Shown: positions 7,062 to 24,787 of the stretch, one piece after another
Layout: every line of letters starts with the position of its first letter
Numbering within the stretch: the first letter of the stretch is position 1
From: a virus
Virus record (IMG/VR): IMGVR_UViG_3300046715_000149
Location: 1 to 64,000 of that record
Length of the DNA stretch: 64,000 nt
Strand: one strand, 5' to 3'
Program-made: the position numbers and the translations under genes
The notes under the pieces: model-generated
The model's input: the letters and a program-made list of their open reading frames with translations, nothing else
Told to the model about the DNA's origin: nothing
Database searches by the model: none

Positions 7062-7372
7062 CTGGTGTTGCTCCTCTCGTCCCCGTAGAACCACGGGGGT
7101 CGTCTGGTGGATCGCGCGGACGGCCACATGCCGAGCCGCACGCACTCCTGATCGGCGTAGTCGACGCGCAGGACGGCCCGCTCCAGCACGTCGTGACCGC
7201 GCGGCGGACGCCTGTGGCCGGCCCGGGATTCGGCGCCCAGCGCCCGGGCCAGCCGGACCGCGTCGGATGCGGTGACGAACGCGCGGACCGCAGCCAGGCG
7301 CAGCGCGTTGCAGCGGGTGCACGCGCCGAGGTAGACGGTCGGCCAGGGCAGGTGACAGACGGAGCAGGTCAT
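7058..7372 (-). CDS. Zinc-ribbon-like protein
   Basis: A 104-residue protein with CSVC at residues 3-6 and CTRC about 12 residues later, a likely four-cysteine zinc ribbon, followed by a helical region. It overlaps both neighbours by ATGA-type junctions. It may bind nucleic acid or act as a partner protein; nothing more can be said. Confidence 0.7.
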   Translation of the reverse strand: MTCSVCHLPWPTVYLGACTRCNALRLAAVRAFVTASDAVRLARALGAESRAGHRRPPRGHDVLERAVLRVDYADQECVRLGMWPSARSTRRPPWFYGDERSNTR

Positions 7373-7992
7373 CGCGCCTGCCCCAGCAGCACGTCGCGCG
7401 CCTTGGTGATCAGGCGCATGACCGACTCGGACCCGCCGGGCATGTCCGGGTGGTACTTCTTGGCGGCGAACCGGTACGCGCGGGTGATGCCCTCCTTGCT
7501 GGTCAAGTCGCTGGCGATCAGCTCGATGCCGAGCGCATCGGCAAAGACCAGGCGGGCGGACTCCGGCGTGAGCGTGTCCTCCATCGGCCTGGCCGCGATG
7601 GCCTGCCAACCGCGGTACTGCTCACCGGTGCGGGTGATGCCGTAGCGATCGACGGCGCGCAGCGCGCTGAGTCCGAGGGCGATGGCGCGCACGTTGTCGC
7701 GCCAGTAGTCGAAGGCGTCGGTGGCGTAGGTCAGCGGACCGTGACGCGAGTCGAAGCTGACCTGTACGCCCTGGAAGCCGACGCGGGCGTTCGCCCGGAT
7801 CATGCCGTCGCGGCGCAGGTCAGTCTCGGTGATGTCGATCTGGGTGGCGATCACGGCGCCATCGAGCAGTTCCACCTCGCGCTTGAGCAGGTCGAGCGTG
7901 GAATTCCATCCGGTCTTGAACAGGGCGCGGCGCGGAAAGTCGGTCTTCGGCTTGTTCCATCCGGCCAGCGGGCGGATCTCGAAGCGCACCAT
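7369..7992 (-). CDS. J-domain (DnaJ-like) protein
   Basis: A 207-residue protein. The C-terminal 60 residues carry a J-domain-like segment with the signature HPD in AAKKYHPDMPGG, followed by a helix ending KARDVLLGQAR. J-domains stimulate the ATPase of Hsp70 (DnaK) through HPD. The N-terminal 140 residues are a separate, unrecognised domain. The ATG at 7992 forms TGATG with the upstream gene. Free-standing J-domain proteins are known in actinophages; here it may recruit host DnaK to replication or regulatory complexes, which is inference. Confidence 0.75.
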   Translation of the reverse strand: MVRFEIRPLAGWNKPKTDFPRRALFKTGWNSTLDLLKREVELLDGAVIATQIDITETDLRRDGMIRANARVGFQGVQVSFDSRHGPLTYATDAFDYWRDNVRAIALGLSALRAVDRYGITRTGEQYRGWQAIAARPMEDTLTPESARLVFADALGIELIASDLTSKEGITRAYRFAAKKYHPDMPGGSESVMRLITKARDVLLGQAR

Positions 7993-8186
7993 CACGCCCA
8001 GCCTTCCGGGACCGCATGGTGGTCGGCAGCGTTGTCGTAGACGTGGCGCCAGCCGGTGTACATCGCGAGCCGGCCGTCGATGATGTCGCCCGCGTTCGCA
8101 TAGAACGCCGGGCGGCCGCAGGTCTCCATGCCCTTGGTCAGGTTCGGCTCGCCGATCTTTGCAACGCAGGTCTTCACGGTGCCCAT
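7992..8186 (-). CDS. Small protein of unknown function, first gene of the clamp-like/J-domain operon
   Basis: A 64-residue protein with two cysteines (MGTVKTCVAKIG and METCGRP). GAGAGGGG lies 5 bases before the ATG. Promoter P4 lies just upstream, so this gene starts the operon running through the J-domain, zinc-ribbon and clamp-like genes to 6053. Confidence 0.7.
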   Translation of the reverse strand: MGTVKTCVAKIGEPNLTKGMETCGRPAFYANAGDIIDGRLAMYTGWRHVYDNAADHHAVPEGWA

Positions 8187-8209
8187 CTGGTCCCCTCTCG
8201 TTACGGCTT

Positions 8210-8238
8210 ACTGTACTCCCATGCTTAGCACCAACACC
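8210..8238 (-). promoter_or_regulatory. Family promoter P4 (weak -35, GGGAGTACAGTA core)
   Basis: Leftward promoter with TACAGT at 8215-8210 and GGGAG directly upstream. The -35 region (GGTGTT at 17 bases) is poor. The downstream bases, AAGCCGTAACGAGAGGGG, are the same as those after promoter P6 at 24471, which suggests a duplication. It overlaps the end of gene 8225-8473. Confidence 0.7.
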
Positions 8239-8473
8239 AGAGCGGCCGGTCGCGGACACGTTCCTCGTCGTCCTCGCGCATCAGCCGGGTGACCACGGTG
8301 GGCAGGTTTTCGCCCAGGCGGTGATCAAAGCGCACTATCGCCACCTCTTCGCTGAAGACCTCGACCATGACTCCCGGTCCGCAGTACTCGGACCATGTCG
8401 TGTGACGCACCACGACCCGATCGCCCGGGCGGATCACCTGCCCTGTCCCGCTGATCACGAAGTCGTTCGCCAC
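8225..8473 (-). CDS. Small protein of unknown function
   Basis: An 82-residue protein from a GTG at 8473, preceded by GCGAGGGGGG. A longer frame to 8593 would pass through the terminator hairpin and is rejected. The sequence is beta-rich (VIRPGDRVVVRHTTW) and ends in WCWC. No promoter is seen between the terminator and the start codon, so expression may depend on read-through. Confidence 0.6.
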   Translation of the reverse strand: MANDFVISGTGQVIRPGDRVVVRHTTWSEYCGPGVMVEVFSEEVAIVRFDHRLGENLPTVVTRLMREDDEERVRDRPLWCWC

Positions 8474-13479: not shown

Positions 13480-13859
13480 CCCGCGAGGAGTACGAGCAGA
13501 ACCGGCAATGCCTCGAGGCAATGATCGAGCAGAGGCGGGAACATGTCGGCGAGGGCTGCGGCGGGCTGACGTGCATGGGGGAGCCGGCCAACATGTCGCT
13601 GCGCGCCGGGATCAATGTCGACCCCGGGTGGCCGGTCAGGCTGGTGCTCACCGCGGTCACGATGATGGCCGGCCACCAGGACCGGATCGAGAATCTCGAG
13701 CGGCGGATGGAGGTTCAGCGGCAGATGACAGCCGACGCCGCGGCGAGCGCGATGCGACTGGACGCCGATCTCGTGGACGCACACGGGCAGATCGCCGGGC
13801 TCGAGGAGAGAGTCGCGGCGCTGCTGGCCGAGTTGACCGTGATGGAAGAGCCCGAGTGA
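13476..13859 (+). CDS. Coiled-coil protein of unknown function
   Basis: A 127-residue protein. The second half (about residues 68-125) is a charged heptad-like coiled coil (HQDRIENLERRMEVQRQ). The first part has two cysteines in GCGGLTC. It overlaps the ERF gene by ATGA and ends just before the operator at 13883. Confidence 0.7.
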   Translation: MTREEYEQNRQCLEAMIEQRREHVGEGCGGLTCMGEPANMSLRAGINVDPGWPVRLVLTAVTMMAGHQDRIENLERRMEVQRQMTADAAASAMRLDADLVDAHGQIAGLEERVAALLAELTVMEEPE

Positions 13860-13882
13860 TCTAGCAGGTGGCTTGCTTTATT

Positions 13883-13914
13883 GGACTGTACTCCCGATAA
13901 TGGGAGTACAGTCC
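13883..13914 (+). promoter_or_regulatory. Family promoter P5 expanded to a perfect inverted repeat
   Basis: GGACTGTACTCCC, six bases, then its exact complement GGGAGTACAGTCC. The right half supplies the rightward -10 box TACAGT at 13907-13912. The left half is the same element facing leftwards. TTGGAC lies 20 bases upstream of the -10 box. It controls the helicase-methyltransferase-clamp operon and is the only doubled copy of the motif. Confidence 0.8.
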
Positions 13915-13934
13915 AATCTTATGAAGGGGAGACG

Positions 13935-14174: not shown

Positions 14175-16636
14175 TGGCGTCGTACGCCGACTTCCTGGCC
14201 GGCAAGAGCCAGTACGGCAGCGACGACGGGTTCGCCTACTCGTGGCGGCCCGACTTCCTGTTCGGCTTCCAGGACTCCCTCACCGAGTGGGCCTGCCAGA
14301 TCGGGCGCGGGGCCCTGTTCGCGGACTGCGGGCTCGGCAAGGCTCAGCCGGTTGATGAGCCCGTGCTGACCCCCTCGGGATGGCGGGCGATCGGATCGCT
14401 CGCTGTCGGAGATCAAGTCATCACTGCCGATGGCGAGGCGACCCGGATCATCGGGATGTTCCCGCAGGGTCAGCGGGACACCGTTCGAGTCCGGATGAAC
14501 GACGGGTCTTCGACCGTGTGCGACCGTGACCATTTGTGGACGGTGGCAACCGATCTGGACATTTCCCGTGGCCGACCCTGGCGGACGCTTACCGCTCAGC
14601 AGTTGATCGCGGCCGGACTGGAATTGCCGCCCCGGAACGGGCCCAGATGGAGGGTGCCCGTCGTCGAGGGTGTCCGCCATCCCACCGCAGACCTTCCCAT
14701 CGACCCGTACGTCATGGGTGTGCTTCTCGGAGATGGATCGTTCCGGCCGCCGGGCGGCCCGGAGTTCACTGCGGTGGACGCCCAGATCGCCGCCGAGGTC
14801 AAGACTCGACTCCCTGAGTCGATGCGCCTGTCGATGGACCCCCGTGCTGACCGATCCCAGCAGTACCGCCTTGCGATCGTGGGCGGGGCTGGAAGTGGCG
14901 GACGGTCCAATCCGTTCCTGCAGGCAATCAAGAAATGGGGACTGCACGGAGTCCATTCGAGCGGAAAGTTCATCCCACAGGAGTATCTGTATGGCGACCG
15001 CCATCAGCGACTCGCCCTGCTTCGCGGACTCATGGATACCGACGGATATGTCGCCGCAAGCGGGATGATCCAGTTCGGGTCCTCGTCGCTGCGCCTAGCC
15101 GATGGCGTGACCGAGATCGTGCGAAGCCTGGGCGGAGTCGTCCGGGCCAGCTCGAAGATCCCCACGTACCACCATCTGGGCGAGCGGCGGACCGGGCAGC
15201 GGCACCACGTCCTGACGATCGCCCTACCGAACGGCACCATGCCGTTCCTGCTTGATCGCAAGGTCGCTCGATGCCGTGACCGGTACTACGCCCCTCAGCG
15301 GAAGATCGCGAGTATCGAGCCGGAGGGACGCAGCGAGTGCGTCTGCATTCGGGTCGAGCATCCGTCACAGCTCTATGTCACACGCGACCACATCGTCACG
15401 CACAACACTCCGATGCAGCTCGTGTGGGCCGAGAACGCACGGCGCGCCACCGGCAAGCCCGTGCTCGTGCTGACCCCGCTGGCGGTCGCGTTCCAGACCG
15501 AGACCGAGGCCGCCAAGTTCGGGATCGAGGCCGGCATCTCCCGCGACGGGACGCTGCCTGCGCCGATCACGATCACCAACTACGAGCAGCTCGAGAAGTT
15601 CGACCCGGACAAGTTCGGCGCGGTGGTCTGCGACGAGTCGTCCGCGATCAAGGCATTCGACGGCAAGCGCAAGGCGATCGTGACCGAGTTCCTGCGGACC
15701 GTGCCCTACCGCCTGCTGGCCACCGCCACGGCGGCGCCGAACGACTACGTCGAACTCGGCACCTCCAGCGAAGCGCTCGGCTACCTCGGGCACATGGACA
15801 TGCTCGGCCGCTTCTTCATCAACGCCCAGCGGACCACCACGGCATTCAAGGGCCGGTACATGAACCGTGGCGAGCGGCGGGACGGGTTCATGGATCAGCA
15901 CGGGTGGCGATTCAAGGGTCACGCCGAGGATGCGTTCTGGCGCTGGGTCGTGTCCTGGGCCCGGGCCGTCCGCAAGCCGTCCGACCTCGGCTACTCCGAC
16001 GACGGATACGTGCTACCGGAGCTGCGCGAGATCAAGCACCTGATCGACGCGTCCACTCCTGCCGACGGCCGGCTGTTCGACATCCCGGCGCAGGGGCTGC
16101 ACGAGGAGCGCGAGGAGGCGCGGCGGACCATCCCCGAGCGGTGCGAGAAGGCGGCCGAACTGCTGGTCGACGCCAAGCCTGGTGTGGCATGGTGCCACCT
16201 CAATGACGAGGCCGACCTGCTGGTCAAGCTGATCGACGGCGCCGTCCAGGTGTCCGGGTCCGACTCGCCGCAGGAGAAGGAGGAGAAGCTGCACGCGTTC
16301 TCCGACGGGCAGATCCGGGTGCTGGTCACCAAGCCGAAGCTCGGCGCGTGGGGCCTGAACTGGCAGCACTGCCACCGCATGACCTACTTCCCCAGCCACT
16401 CCTACGAGCAGTGGTATCAGGCCGTCCGGCGCTCATGGCGCTTCGGTCAGACCGAGCCGGTGACCGTGGACATCGTGACCACGCCCGGCGGTGGCCGGAT
16501 CTTCGACAACCTGCACCGCAAGGCGACGGCGGCCGACCAGATGTTCGGCGCGCTGACCAGGCACATGCGTAACGCGCTGGCCGTCAAGCCGATCTCCACC
16601 TACCCGCACCCCGTCGAGATCCCGCCGTGGATCTGA
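14174..16636 (+). CDS. SNF2-type DNA helicase interrupted by an intein
   Basis: An 820-residue precursor whose mature helicase would be 465 residues after removal of a 355-residue intein. Motif I (GLGK then T) is split by the intein after K56. Further motifs are CDESS (motif II), LLATATAAP (motif III), GAWGLNWQHCHR (motif V region) and QAVRRSWRFGQ (motif VI), which is the SNF2/superfamily 2 pattern. It probably remodels or unwinds DNA for replication or modification. The adjacent methyltransferase overlaps its end by ten bases, so the two are likely made together. The start ATG forms TGATG with the preceding gene. Confidence 0.85.
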   Translation: MASYADFLAGKSQYGSDDGFAYSWRPDFLFGFQDSLTEWACQIGRGALFADCGLGKAQPVDEPVLTPSGWRAIGSLAVGDQVITADGEATRIIGMFPQGQRDTVRVRMNDGSSTVCDRDHLWTVATDLDISRGRPWRTLTAQQLIAAGLELPPRNGPRWRVPVVEGVRHPTADLPIDPYVMGVLLGDGSFRPPGGPEFTAVDAQIAAEVKTRLPESMRLSMDPRADRSQQYRLAIVGGAGSGGRSNPFLQAIKKWGLHGVHSSGKFIPQEYLYGDRHQRLALLRGLMDTDGYVAASGMIQFGSSSLRLADGVTEIVRSLGGVVRASSKIPTYHHLGERRTGQRHHVLTIALPNGTMPFLLDRKVARCRDRYYAPQRKIASIEPEGRSECVCIRVEHPSQLYVTRDHIVTHNTPMQLVWAENARRATGKPVLVLTPLAVAFQTETEAAKFGIEAGISRDGTLPAPITITNYEQLEKFDPDKFGAVVCDESSAIKAFDGKRKAIVTEFLRTVPYRLLATATAAPNDYVELGTSSEALGYLGHMDMLGRFFINAQRTTTAFKGRYMNRGERRDGFMDQHGWRFKGHAEDAFWRWVVSWARAVRKPSDLGYSDDGYVLPELREIKHLIDASTPADGRLFDIPAQGLHEEREEARRTIPERCEKAAELLVDAKPGVAWCHLNDEADLLVKLIDGAVQVSGSDSPQEKEEKLHAFSDGQIRVLVTKPKLGAWGLNWQHCHRMTYFPSHSYEQWYQAVRRSWRFGQTEPVTVDIVTTPGGGRIFDNLHRKATAADQMFGALTRHMRNALAVKPISTYPHPVEIPPWI
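14342..15406 (+). other. Class 3-like intein with LAGLIDADG endonuclease
   Basis: This 355-residue insert lies inside the Walker A motif. Its first residue is Ala, not Cys or Ser. It has the Trp-Cys-Thr triplet of class 3 inteins: W66 in DRDHLW, C335 in CVCIRV and T353 in IVTHN. It ends HN and is followed by Thr as the +1 residue. In class 3 inteins the block F cysteine, here C335, starts splicing. Two LAGLIDADG-type motifs are present at about residues 122-133 (YVMGVLLGDGS) and 223-236 (LALLRGLMDTDGYV), so the homing endonuclease looks intact. Confidence 0.85.
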
Positions 16637-21521: not shown

Positions 21522-21950
21522 GTGACCAATGATAACGGATCGGCTACTCAACGGCTGATCGACGCCCTCGGCGACCCCGACCGGCTCTACGACCGCGGGC
21601 AACTGGCGTTCCTCATGGGCGCCGCGATGCGCTGGGGATACGAGGCGGCCGAGGCAGAGATGGCCGCCGACCCGATGTCCTGGGCGGCCGGGCTCGAACA
21701 GGGCTACCGGCTGCGGTGCGCCGAGCAGGAGGAGGGCTACCCGCCCCCGCCGTACCTGTTGGTCGCGGGGGTCAAGGTGGGCGGCGACCAGCGGGCGGCG
21801 CGCGAGGCGGTGGCCGCCGACCGGACGCAGCGCTACGCGGGCGGGCCGGTCGAGGTGTGGGAGGCCGACCGGCCCGAGCCGGCCCGTGACCCCCGGCCGA
21901 TGCGGGTGCGCAAGGTCGACGGGCTGTGGACCTGGGCGGAGCAGCTGTGA
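21522..21950 (+). CDS. Protein of unknown function
   Basis: A 142-residue protein from a GTG preceded by AGAAGGAGTTGTC. It starts MTNDNGSATQRLIDALGDP and has an acidic helical N-terminal half and a Pro/Arg-rich C-terminal half. No family is recognised. Confidence 0.7.
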   Translation: MTNDNGSATQRLIDALGDPDRLYDRGQLAFLMGAAMRWGYEAAEAEMAADPMSWAAGLEQGYRLRCAEQEEGYPPPPYLLVAGVKVGGDQRAAREAVAADRTQRYAGGPVEVWEADRPEPARDPRPMRVRKVDGLWTWAEQL

Positions 21951-21996
21951 TCGATTCCGGACACGCGCGCCGCGTGGCAGAGCGCCGAGGTACGCC

Positions 21997-22269
21997 ATGA
22001 GGACCGTGACGATCGGGACCGACCCGGCCTGCGACATCGTGGTCGACGACCCGTACGCCTCGCCGGTGCACTGCCGGTTAACCGAGGGCAGATTCTGCGT
22101 CTGGGTGGTTCAGGATCTCGGCTCGACAAACGGCACGACGGTCATGCGTAACGGACAGATCCGGGACAGGCTGGGCCTGGGTGCAACGTGCCATCTCACC
22201 ACCGGTGATGTGCTGGTGATCGGGCGGACCCGGATGCCGCCGTTCACGCCGGAGCGGGTGGCGGGATGA
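21997..22269 (+). CDS. FHA-domain protein (phosphothreonine reader)
   Basis: A 90-residue protein that is almost entirely an FHA domain: IGTDPACDIVVDDPYAS, S22 and H25 of the SxxH element, then LGSTNGT with N45. FHA domains bind phosphothreonine peptides on proteins. Actinobacterial hosts have many Ser/Thr kinases, so the protein may dock on a phosphorylated host or phage protein. The usual arginine after the first glycine is replaced by threonine, which could weaken binding. It overlaps the helicase start by GATGACG, so it may work with the replisome. Confidence 0.8.
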   Translation: MRTVTIGTDPACDIVVDDPYASPVHCRLTEGRFCVWVVQDLGSTNGTTVMRNGQIRDRLGLGATCHLTTGDVLVIGRTRMPPFTPERVAG

Positions 22270-23807
22270 CGCCGCCGGAGGAGATCTCGGCTGCCGAGGA
22301 TCTCTGGGCGGGAGAGCGGGTCGACGAGGACGGCTACGTCCTCGAGCGCGACGACGTGTACGGGGACGAGGTCGGCCCGCACGTGGTCGGCTCCACTCCG
22401 GCCGACATGACCGCGCAGGAGGCCATCGCCGCGCGCTACCGGCTGCCCGAGGAGTTCTGGGGCTCGCGCGAGGTGTTCAAGCTGATCCGCCAGGCCGCGT
22501 GGCAGAGCCAGACTCACCCGGACGCCGTGCTCGCCTGCGTGCTGACCAGAGTGGCCGGCGCGCTCGGGCCCGAGGTCAGCTTCGACACCGGCAAGAGCCT
22601 CGGCACGATGAGCCTGTTCGCGGTGCTGCTGAGCAAGAGCGGCATCGGCAAGTCGGACGCGGTCAAGGCGGCCAAGCGGCTGATGCGGATGCCCTCGTGG
22701 TTGTGCGGGCCGGACGGCGCGATCGACATGGACGTGTTCCGCGACGGGTTGTCGCTGAGCACCGGCGAGGGCCTGGCCGAGACGTTCATGGGCACCGTCG
22801 AGGTGGAGGCGACCAACCCCGACGGCTCGGTCAAGTACGAGATGAAGGGCCGCGGCCGCAACGCGGTGCCCGAGCCGGTCATGGTCAAGGTGCGCAAGGC
22901 GGTCCGCGGCCGGGCCTGGTTCTACGTCGACGAGGGAGAGGTGCTGACCAAGCTGATGCACGAGCGGTCCGGTGCCACGCTGGGCGGGCACTTGCGGACG
23001 GCCTGGTCGGGCGCCGCGCTGTCGCAGTCCAACGCGTCGGAGGAGCGCTGGCGGTACGTCCCGGACGGCAGCTACACGGTCGGCATGATCATCGGCTACC
23101 AGCCGGAGACCGCCGTGACCATGCTGTCCGAGGTCGGCCCGGGCACCCCGCAGCGGTTCCTGTGGCTGGGCGCCCAGGACACCGAGATGCCCCACCCCGA
23201 CGAGGCCTTCGAGTTCCCCGAGCCGCTCGTGCTGCCATCCGAGCACCGCCGGACCGGGGTCGTCCAGTTCCCGGCCGAACTGCGCCGGTGGTTCCGCCAC
23301 CAGATCCACGGCAAGCACGTCGGCACCATCGAGTTCGACCCGATGGACTCGCACGAGCCGCTGATGCGGGCCAAGCTGTCGGCGCTGCTGTGCTACATCG
23401 ACGGCCGGATGCTGGTCGATCGGGACGACTGGATCCTGGCCGGCATGATCTGGTCGGTCTCCTGCGCGATCCGCAACCGGCTGATCCGCTACCGCGACCA
23501 GCAGGCCGAGCGGAGCGCCGAGGAGAAGCGCGCGGCCCGGATCACCGAGGCGGTGGAGATCGAGACGGCCAAGGCGGGCATCGGCGCCGACGTCGAGCGG
23601 GTGGCCCGGCGGATCTATCACTACGTGGCCGAGGCGGCGCCGGAACCGTTCACGTCGGTCAAGGCGTACGTGATCTACAAGAAGTTGTCACGCGACAAGC
23701 CTTTGTTCAAGGCCGCGGTGGCGCACGCGGTGTCCATCGGATGGATCAACGAGATAGATGAGGGTGGATTGGAAACGGGCTCTTCGATGCCAAACGAGCG
23801 ATCTTGA
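22266..23807 (+). CDS. DUF3987-type replicative helicase/primase-associated ATPase
   Basis: A 513-residue protein. A P-loop SGIGKS is at residues 125-130 and a Walker B WFYVDE at about 218-223. The later GMIIGYQPETAVTML and QRFLWLGA resemble the sensor region of DUF3987/RepA-type hexameric helicases found in phages and mobile elements. The N-terminal 70 residues are acidic and the C-terminal 90 form a helical, probably winged-helix tail. It probably unwinds the origin: the candidate origin begins immediately after its stop codon. It overlaps the FHA gene by ATGA. Confidence 0.75.
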   Translation: MTPPEEISAAEDLWAGERVDEDGYVLERDDVYGDEVGPHVVGSTPADMTAQEAIAARYRLPEEFWGSREVFKLIRQAAWQSQTHPDAVLACVLTRVAGALGPEVSFDTGKSLGTMSLFAVLLSKSGIGKSDAVKAAKRLMRMPSWLCGPDGAIDMDVFRDGLSLSTGEGLAETFMGTVEVEATNPDGSVKYEMKGRGRNAVPEPVMVKVRKAVRGRAWFYVDEGEVLTKLMHERSGATLGGHLRTAWSGAALSQSNASEERWRYVPDGSYTVGMIIGYQPETAVTMLSEVGPGTPQRFLWLGAQDTEMPHPDEAFEFPEPLVLPSEHRRTGVVQFPAELRRWFRHQIHGKHVGTIEFDPMDSHEPLMRAKLSALLCYIDGRMLVDRDDWILAGMIWSVSCAIRNRLIRYRDQQAERSAEEKRAARITEAVEIETAKAGIGADVERVARRIYHYVAEAAPEPFTSVKAYVIYKKLSRDKPLFKAAVAHAVSIGWINEIDEGGLETGSSMPNERS

Positions 23808-23812
23808 AAAGT

Positions 23813-23844
23813 GGGGTTCATGGGGTTCACGTGAACCCCATCGG
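23813..23844. repeat. Left origin dyad cluster
   Basis: GGGGTTCA occurs twice directly (23813 and 23822). The second copy forms a perfect 18-bp palindrome with TGAACCCC. ATCGGG follows. Confidence 0.7.
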
Positions 23845-24000
23845 GCACTCTGGCGGTTGCAAAAACGGTAAGGGTACCCTAAGTTGATCGTGGAGTCCAA
23901 GATCTCAAAAAACAGGGCCTGACCTGCGTATATATATAGATATAGATATAGAGTAGCTTGATTAAAATAACGCGCGAGCAAACCAGAGAGACACCCCCTT

Positions 24001-24046
24001 GGGGTTCATGAACCCCAGAACCCCATCGGTAAGCCGTGGCTTACCG
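24001..24046. repeat. Right origin dyad cluster and hairpin
   Basis: GGGGTTCATGAACCCC is a perfect 16-bp palindrome, followed by AGAACCCCATCGG. A perfect hairpin, CGGTAAGCC-GT-GGCTTACCG, then ends at 24046. Confidence 0.7.
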
Positions 24047-24071
24047 AGTAGACATCGATGGGAGTCGAAGG

Positions 24072-24326
24072 ATGACTGAGCGCAGGTGCCGCAACGGCGG
24101 GAAGGCGTGGCCGTTCCATGCCGGCCACGCGGGGGCGCAGGACTACGCGACGGAGCCAATCGTGGTGGCGGTCGGGCGCGAGTTCGCCGAGGAGGTCTCC
24201 GCGCTCGCGGGCTTCGTCGGTGAGGGGTTGGTGGAGATGACCCACGCAGACGGCTGCATGTGCGAGGGAGCGCGTCGGCCGACTGCGGCGTGCGTGCGGA
24301 ACACAATGACCAGCGACCTCACGTAG
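24072..24326 (+). CDS. Small protein of unknown function with Cys residues
   Basis: An 84-residue protein starting MTERRCRNGGKAWPFH. The ATG at 24072 is preceded by GGGAGTCGAAGG. It has a CMC pair near the C-terminus. An upstream in-frame start at 24036 would overlap the origin hairpin and is rejected. No family is recognised. Confidence 0.6.
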   Translation: MTERRCRNGGKAWPFHAGHAGAQDYATEPIVVAVGREFAEEVSALAGFVGEGLVEMTHADGCMCEGARRPTAACVRNTMTSDLT

Positions 24327-24441: not shown

Positions 24442-24471
24442 TTGCCCCCCGATCACCGTCGGGAGTACAGT
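24442..24471 (+). promoter_or_regulatory. Family promoter P6 (TTGCCC-18-TACAGT)
   Basis: Rightward promoter with TTGCCC at 24442-24447, an 18-base spacer ending CGGGAG, and TACAGT at 24466-24471. The following AAGCCGTAACGAGAGGGG is shared with P4. It starts the accessory operon from 24497. Confidence 0.8.
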
Positions 24472-24496
24472 AAGCCGTAACGAGAGGGGTTGTGGG

Positions 24497-24787
24497 ATGA
24501 CTGAGGGGAAGGTGGCCCTGCCCACCGTTGCGGACAAGCAGGCTGAGCAGGTGCAACGCCAGGCCGCGCGGGTGGTCAAGCAGCTTCGGGACCTGGCCGA
24601 CCGGGTGGAGCAGGAGGTCGTCCAGCAGGTCAAGTCCGCCAAGGCGGGCAGTTCGGAGTGGTCGTCCTACGGATGGGTGGCCTCGCGGGTCGTGCACGAG
24701 GTCCAGTGGGGCGTCGCCAACTTGCCGCTCAGCCAGCTCGTCTCCGACGCCGCTGCGGCCGACGTCTACCGCGCGACGGGGGAGTGA
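24497..24787 (+). CDS. Small helical protein of unknown function
   Basis: A 96-residue protein with long predicted helices (DKQAEQVQRQAARVVKQ). GAGAGGGG lies 9 bases before the ATG. It is the first gene behind promoter P6. No family is recognised. Confidence 0.7.
   Translation: MTEGKVALPTVADKQAEQVQRQAARVVKQLRDLADRVEQEVVQQVKSAKAGSSEWSSYGWVASRVVHEVQWGVANLPLSQLVSDAAAADVYRATGE

Follow-up and report, generated by a model that had tools for sequence, protein, structure and literature searches.

Does the 264-bp gap that lies directly 3′ of a DUF3987 helicase gene in the IMG/VR virus record IMGVR_UViG_3300046715_000149 serve as a replication origin and, if so, is it read by the helicase encoded beside it? 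The DNA analysed, referred to as the window, covers positions 1 to 64,000, which is most of the 66,492-bp record; judged by its gene content, this record is a tailed phage of actinobacterial type. The gap (23808-24071) had been described from the letters of the sequence as an iteron-type origin with a cognate helicase, and an origin paired with a cognate helicase, as in this original prediction, is the best reading of the data gathered here. We consider it very likely that the gap is a phage replication origin read by the upstream helicase, with the mechanism proposed below, because 29 of 108 helicase families have its layout behind the same gene, as against none of the controls, and because the type of its half-site tracks the C-terminal domain of the helicase.

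Layout of the gap behind the helicase gene

The gap and its flanks contain the following features, in which > and < stand for half-sites on the + and − strand, respectively.

22266-23807, + strand: gene for a DUF3987 / primase-polymerase-type helicase of 513 amino acids, the proposed initiator (Pfam, PHROG, AlphaFold2 model)
23586-23777, + strand: part of that gene encoding a predicted C-terminal winged-helix domain (residues 441-504), the proposed half-site reader (AlphaFold2 secondary structure; variation with the half-site)
23812-23840: left cluster, order >><, with half-sites 23812-23820 (+), 23821-23829 (+) and 23832-23840 (−); unchanged in the relative L003
23842-23999: AT-rich core, the proposed melting region (stability, AT content), with a TATATATATAGATATAGATATAG stretch from 23929
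24000-24025: right cluster, order ><<, with half-sites 24000-24008 (+), 24009-24017 (−) and 24018-24025 (−)
24026-24047: perfect hairpin with 10-bp arms and a 2-nt loop, adjoining the right cluster; kept in L003 except for one base near its outer end
24072-24326, + strand: downstream gene of 84 amino acids without assigned function, forming the right edge of the gap

The first half-site starts 5 bp past the stop codon of the helicase gene, and the right cluster mirrors the left one across ~160 bp. The half-site is rare elsewhere: all five copies of TGGGGTTCA in the 64 kb are in the gap (0.20 expected), and six of the seven copies of TGGGGTTC in the whole record fall within 214 bp (23812-24025). 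When the window is cut into 318 tiles, only the one with the gap contains the strict two-triplet layout. The two palindromes noticed originally are there, although they measure 22 bp (23820-23841, ATGGGGTTCACGTGAACCCCAT) and 18 bp (24000-24017, TGGGGTTCATGAACCCCA) and not 18 and 16 bp; so is the extra direct copy, but a sixth half-site at 24018-24025, which makes the set two mirror triplets (>>< / ><<), had been overlooked. The TATATATATAGATATAGATATAG stretch is there as well, and no other DNA in the window is as unstable over 30, 50 or 100 bp. All half-sites and the TATA stretch are kept in L003, the sole close relative among the viral contigs, whose helicase is 97% identical.

The gap had been called a textbook set, of which the binding sites, the AT-rich region and the helicase stand, whereas the hairpin and a KpnI-type palindrome, both present, fall outside the set common to relatives. 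No counterpart of the hairpin was recognised in the gaps of relatives, and it is probably accessory or regulatory. The KpnI-type palindrome AGGGTACCCT reads AGGGTGCCCT in L003 and is thus not conserved; from its region CCCTAA(TAA) alone recurs, in some relatives. A further possible regulatory motif, TAAGCCGTR, occurs three times (0.15 expected): within the hairpin beside the clusters (24030-24038), just 5′ of the gene starting at 24497 (24471-24479), and at 8202-8210 on the − strand.

The gap does not fit the classical iteron type of origin with direct repeats. Origins of the RepA class carry direct repeats of ~17-22 bp in a row with a DnaA box beside them, whereas the gap contains half-sites of 8-9 bp in mirror-ordered triplets, and no DnaA box (TTRTCCACA or TTATNCACA) occurs anywhere in the window; what the gap shares with that class is an AT-rich region suited to melting.

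Clusters of this kind might instead be operators for a dimeric repressor or for an autorepressing helicase, with the AT stretch as the promoter of the downstream genes. Palindromic half-sites in intergenic gaps are typical of operators, a Cro/CI-type helix-turn-helix protein is encoded at ~28.3-28.7 kb, and the gap sits 5′ of a co-directed gene. However, all copies but one are in the gap, 3′ and not 5′ of the helicase gene, mirror triplets bracket an extreme AT core, and the half-site type follows the C-terminal domain of the helicase itself, which makes operators an improbable explanation.

Recurrence of the layout in relatives

A profile built from relatives of the helicase, including those named below, retrieved 46 viral and 80 genome loci. 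The strict scan covered one representative per 80% cluster (108 non-redundant helicase families) and required an 8-mer, with at most one mismatch, in the order >><, followed after 50-350 bp by ><<, no more than 400 bp past the stop codon. This layout lies 3′ of the helicase gene in the 29 families mentioned above; in the same loci it was absent from all interior (0/107), far-downstream (0/104) and upstream regions (0/104; 0/315 in total), as well as from 540 dinucleotide shuffles (0/540). A looser scan found 77/134 downstream regions, as against 4/134 shuffled and 11/133 interior ones. The middle is AT-richer than its own locus in 29/29 families and is the strict AT maximum in 19/29, and the spacing tends to match between both clusters of one family.

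The half-site itself varies by family (TGGGGTTC, TTTGCTGG, ATGTGGAC, TCCGAGGG, GGTGGACA and others). Gordonia phage BetterKatz, whose helicase is only ~27% identical, has the same layout in a 268-bp gap with the half-site GTTTGCTGG, and half-sites of their own in the same layout are found in Tsukamurella phage TPA4, in the Gordonia phages Reyja, Tarzan and Hibiscus, and in three Mycobacterium abscessus prophages. Because half-sites differ among families, an exact scan of the viral contigs for TGGGGTTCATGAACCCCA returned the near-identical contig alone. A DNA-level search in phages yielded nothing beyond matches of low-complexity TATA sequence in crAss-like phages and short hits attributed to chance, all of which were discarded.

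The module is also present, with the half-site TGTGGACA, on the circular 59-kb plasmid III of Nonomuraea gerenzanensis (NZ_LT559120.1, L146/L147), which with its capsid, portal, tail tube and terminase genes is a phage-plasmid. Besides the module, no rep gene (another initiator) or par gene is annotated on it. Its GC skew changes sign, from negative to positive, at ~14 kb, which roughly fits the position of the module (16.84-16.99 kb), although the profile is too noisy to count as support.

The helicase and its C-terminal domain

As originally proposed, the upstream gene encodes a DUF3987-type protein: Pfam assigns its product to PF13148 (E 1.5e-6) alone, and not to the DUF927 or D5/Primase_Cterm type, and the best PHROG is phrog_28894, 'DNA polymerase/primase' (E 3.9e-34). 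An AlphaFold2 model built from 27 sequences has a mean predicted local distance difference test score (pLDDT) of 82.8. Every one of the 50 best Foldseek matches of this model is an MCM or CMG chain (E from 2e-5, TM score ~0.35), and the comparison of the helicase core with the MCM fold in VIA gives a Z of 15.3 over 267 residues with a root mean square deviation of 4.7 Å; the ATPase domain dominates the whole-model search, and we claim no separate fold match for the C-terminal domain. The core is thus predicted to be an MCM-like AAA+ domain. In the model, the C-terminal domain runs helix-helix-helix-strand-strand (H441-457, H467-473, H475-491, E494-497, E501-504), a secondary structure that suggests a winged helix and, with it, the combination of an MCM-type fold and a C-terminal winged helix. 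MCM proteins likewise end in a winged helix. Pfam matches of the C-terminal domains to winged helices are weak and stand alongside other families; a model of this domain alone, computed without an alignment, was poor (pLDDT 48.8) and was not used.

The C-terminal domain varies together with the half-site. In helicases of the M. abscessus prophage type, the ATPase part is 97-99% identical up to about residue 480, past which identity falls to 29-33% or 73% where half-sites differ. Thirteen helicases with ATPase domains 88-100% identical, in same- and different-half-site groups alike, allow this to be quantified: C-terminal domains are 96-100% identical between helicases with the same half-site (27 pairs) and 33-75% identical between those with different half-sites (51 pairs), with the limit that the M. 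abscessus-type prophages in this set are not independent lineages. The same drop in C-terminal identity separates the phages Reyja (ACCTGGAAA) and Tarzan (CGTGGACA), whereas Tarzan and Hibiscus, which have a common half-site, do not show it. Conversely, L011 and L028 share only 87% of their ATPase codons but are 98-100% identical in C-terminal domain and origin. From these comparisons, C-terminal domain and origin look like one exchanged cassette.

Such a cassette appears to be swapped among the M. abscessus-type prophages (L009, L011, L015, L020-L029), which carry at least four half-site types. For the pair L011/L015, a description as three separate places changing together was withdrawn, as divergence extends over the entire block between C-terminal domain and right cluster, both included (core 74% and clusters 50-61% identical, ATPase codons 98%).

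That the clusters are sites for the host DnaA, which would open the core while the helicase is merely loaded, is very unlikely. The actinobacterial DnaA box is TTGTCCACA, and in about half of the families the half-site includes GTGGAC(A), which is close to it; the right cluster of the Nonomuraea module even contains TTGTCCACA. However, the window is devoid of DnaA boxes, TGGGGTTCA, TTTGCTGG and TCCGAGGG do not resemble them, and among near-identical helicases from similar hosts the half-site changes along with the C-terminal domain. Least probable is a parS-like partition site or another structural site, since, even if parS sites can have inverted repeats beside a phage gene and a phage-plasmid relative exists, no parA or parB is annotated beside the module in that phage-plasmid, the window genes that were scanned include none, the cognate protein encoded next to the site is a helicase, and an AT core is no feature of parS. 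Each of the three alternatives, the operators included, is less likely than an origin.

Several results nevertheless weigh against an origin read by the C-terminal domain of the helicase. About half of the helicase families, including that of mycobacteriophage Bora, lack the layout, and the GC-skew check suggested with the original prediction came out negative, with the phage lacking a skew switch at 23.9 kb. The C-terminal domain adjoins the gap and both move as one block, so that their coupling may partly be linkage; this would account in part for the co-inheritance, but not for the left boundary falling at the domain boundary. Across the 29 families, the association between half-site and C-terminal domain is weak (Mantel test, partial r 0.27, p 0.0015) and is not specific to this domain, as r is 0.24 for the ATPase given the C-terminal domain.

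Proposed mechanism and place among known replicons

For binding, melting, self-loading, direction and replication itself, we infer the following course. The C-terminal winged helix of the helicase would dock on the TGGGGTTCA half-sites, and the mirror-ordered triplets on either side would place two helicase assemblies opposed to each other across the AT-rich core. The core would melt between them, allowing the helicase to load itself onto the single strands and to unwind outward, probably in both directions, followed by primase and by the host polymerase on the phage sliding clamp.

The module would work like the Rep-ori systems of Staphylococcus aureus pathogenicity islands (SaPIs) and phage-inducible chromosomal islands (PICIs), exemplified by SaPIbov1, SaPI1 and EcCICFT073, in which the origin likewise lies directly 3′ of the initiator helicase gene. 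The SaPI Rep reads this origin, next to its own gene, through its C-terminal domain (PMC7581432), and PICI origins, in which an AT-rich region always lies between two iteron sets, can sustain the replication of plasmids (PMC6092414). The gap also has two sets of short repeats around an AT-rich region; recognition by the C-terminal domain may be shared too, in that this domain strongly co-varies with the half-site within families of DUF3987 relatives, but linkage may contribute to this. The module is nevertheless not filed as a member of these systems, because initiator family and repeat geometry differ: their Reps, encoded on satellites, are helicases of the DUF927 or D5/Primase_Cterm type, whereas the module pairs a DUF3987 helicase, encoded by full-size phages and prophages of actinobacteria, with triplets in strict mirror order (>>< / ><<), many half-sites specific to their lineages, and a seemingly exchangeable cassette of domain and origin.

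Other systems resemble the module in part. Cch2 of the staphylococcal cassette chromosome mec (SCCmec), a helicase of self-loading type, binds repeats just 3′ of its operon via its C-terminal domain (PMC7581432), but at one 23-bp direct-repeat site with three AAGTG iterons, for which mirror clusters and an AT core are not described. In extrachromosomal mycobacterial prophages, which also provide actinobacterial phage origins, these are of RepA type or RNA-based without a protein and lie beside parABS, and no repeated motifs were identified there (PMC7157519). ORF904 of the Sulfolobus plasmid pRN1 has a C-terminal winged helix and an origin within the ~166 bp after its primase-helicase gene (PMC4234260). 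The pRN1 origin differs in being a stem-loop of ~100 nt without iterons. The alpha protein of phage P4, with a primase of the Toprim type, contains a C-terminal winged helix too, and the P4 origin elements are arranged differently from the gap module. Like the proposed initiator, alpha is a primase-helicase acting on a cognate origin, a parallel discussed in PMC4234260 and PMC6092414.

With moderate confidence, we lean towards regarding the module as representative of a widespread and undescribed class of actinobacterial phage replicons, in which a self-loading MCM-like DUF3987 helicase forms two opposed assemblies at mirror triplets next to its gene and a cassette of C-terminal domain and origin, exchanged among phages, sets replication specificity, akin to plasmid incompatibility groups. 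The open-access literature yielded no description of this class, although one may exist elsewhere.

The remaining genes of the window include those for a YqaJ nuclease, an ERF protein, a sliding clamp, a DNA methylase, a RusA resolvase, terminase, portal and tape measure. The 84-amino-acid product encoded downstream of the gap has no Pfam or PHROG match and no tblastn match in phages. Directly 5′ of the replicative helicase gene lies a gene for an FHA-domain protein (21886-22269, E 4e-14); FHA domains read phosphothreonine. A SNF2/DEAD-type helicase gene (14177-16636) is split by an intein with Hint and LAGLIDADG matches, and the product of 7369-8259 (−) has a weak DnaJ-like C-terminal match under the Pfam cut-off and belongs to a PHROG with unknown function. 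A terminator-like perfect 16-bp inverted repeat with a 6-nt loop (13880-13917), 3′ of the gene ending at 13859, sits where the AT content of the window is second highest.

For most actinobacterial phages the replication origin is unknown, and the gap provides a specific candidate for the window phage. By the rule >>< - AT - ><< just past a DUF3987 helicase gene, origins are predicted for dozens of phages and prophages, among them phages of Gordonia, one of Tsukamurella and prophages of M. abscessus, and the natural domain swaps point to the DNA-reading domain of the initiator. The predicted MCM-like fold would connect DUF3987, which has no assigned function, with replicative helicases that load themselves, and the module might be a source of new actinobacterial plasmid replicons that are compatible with one another.
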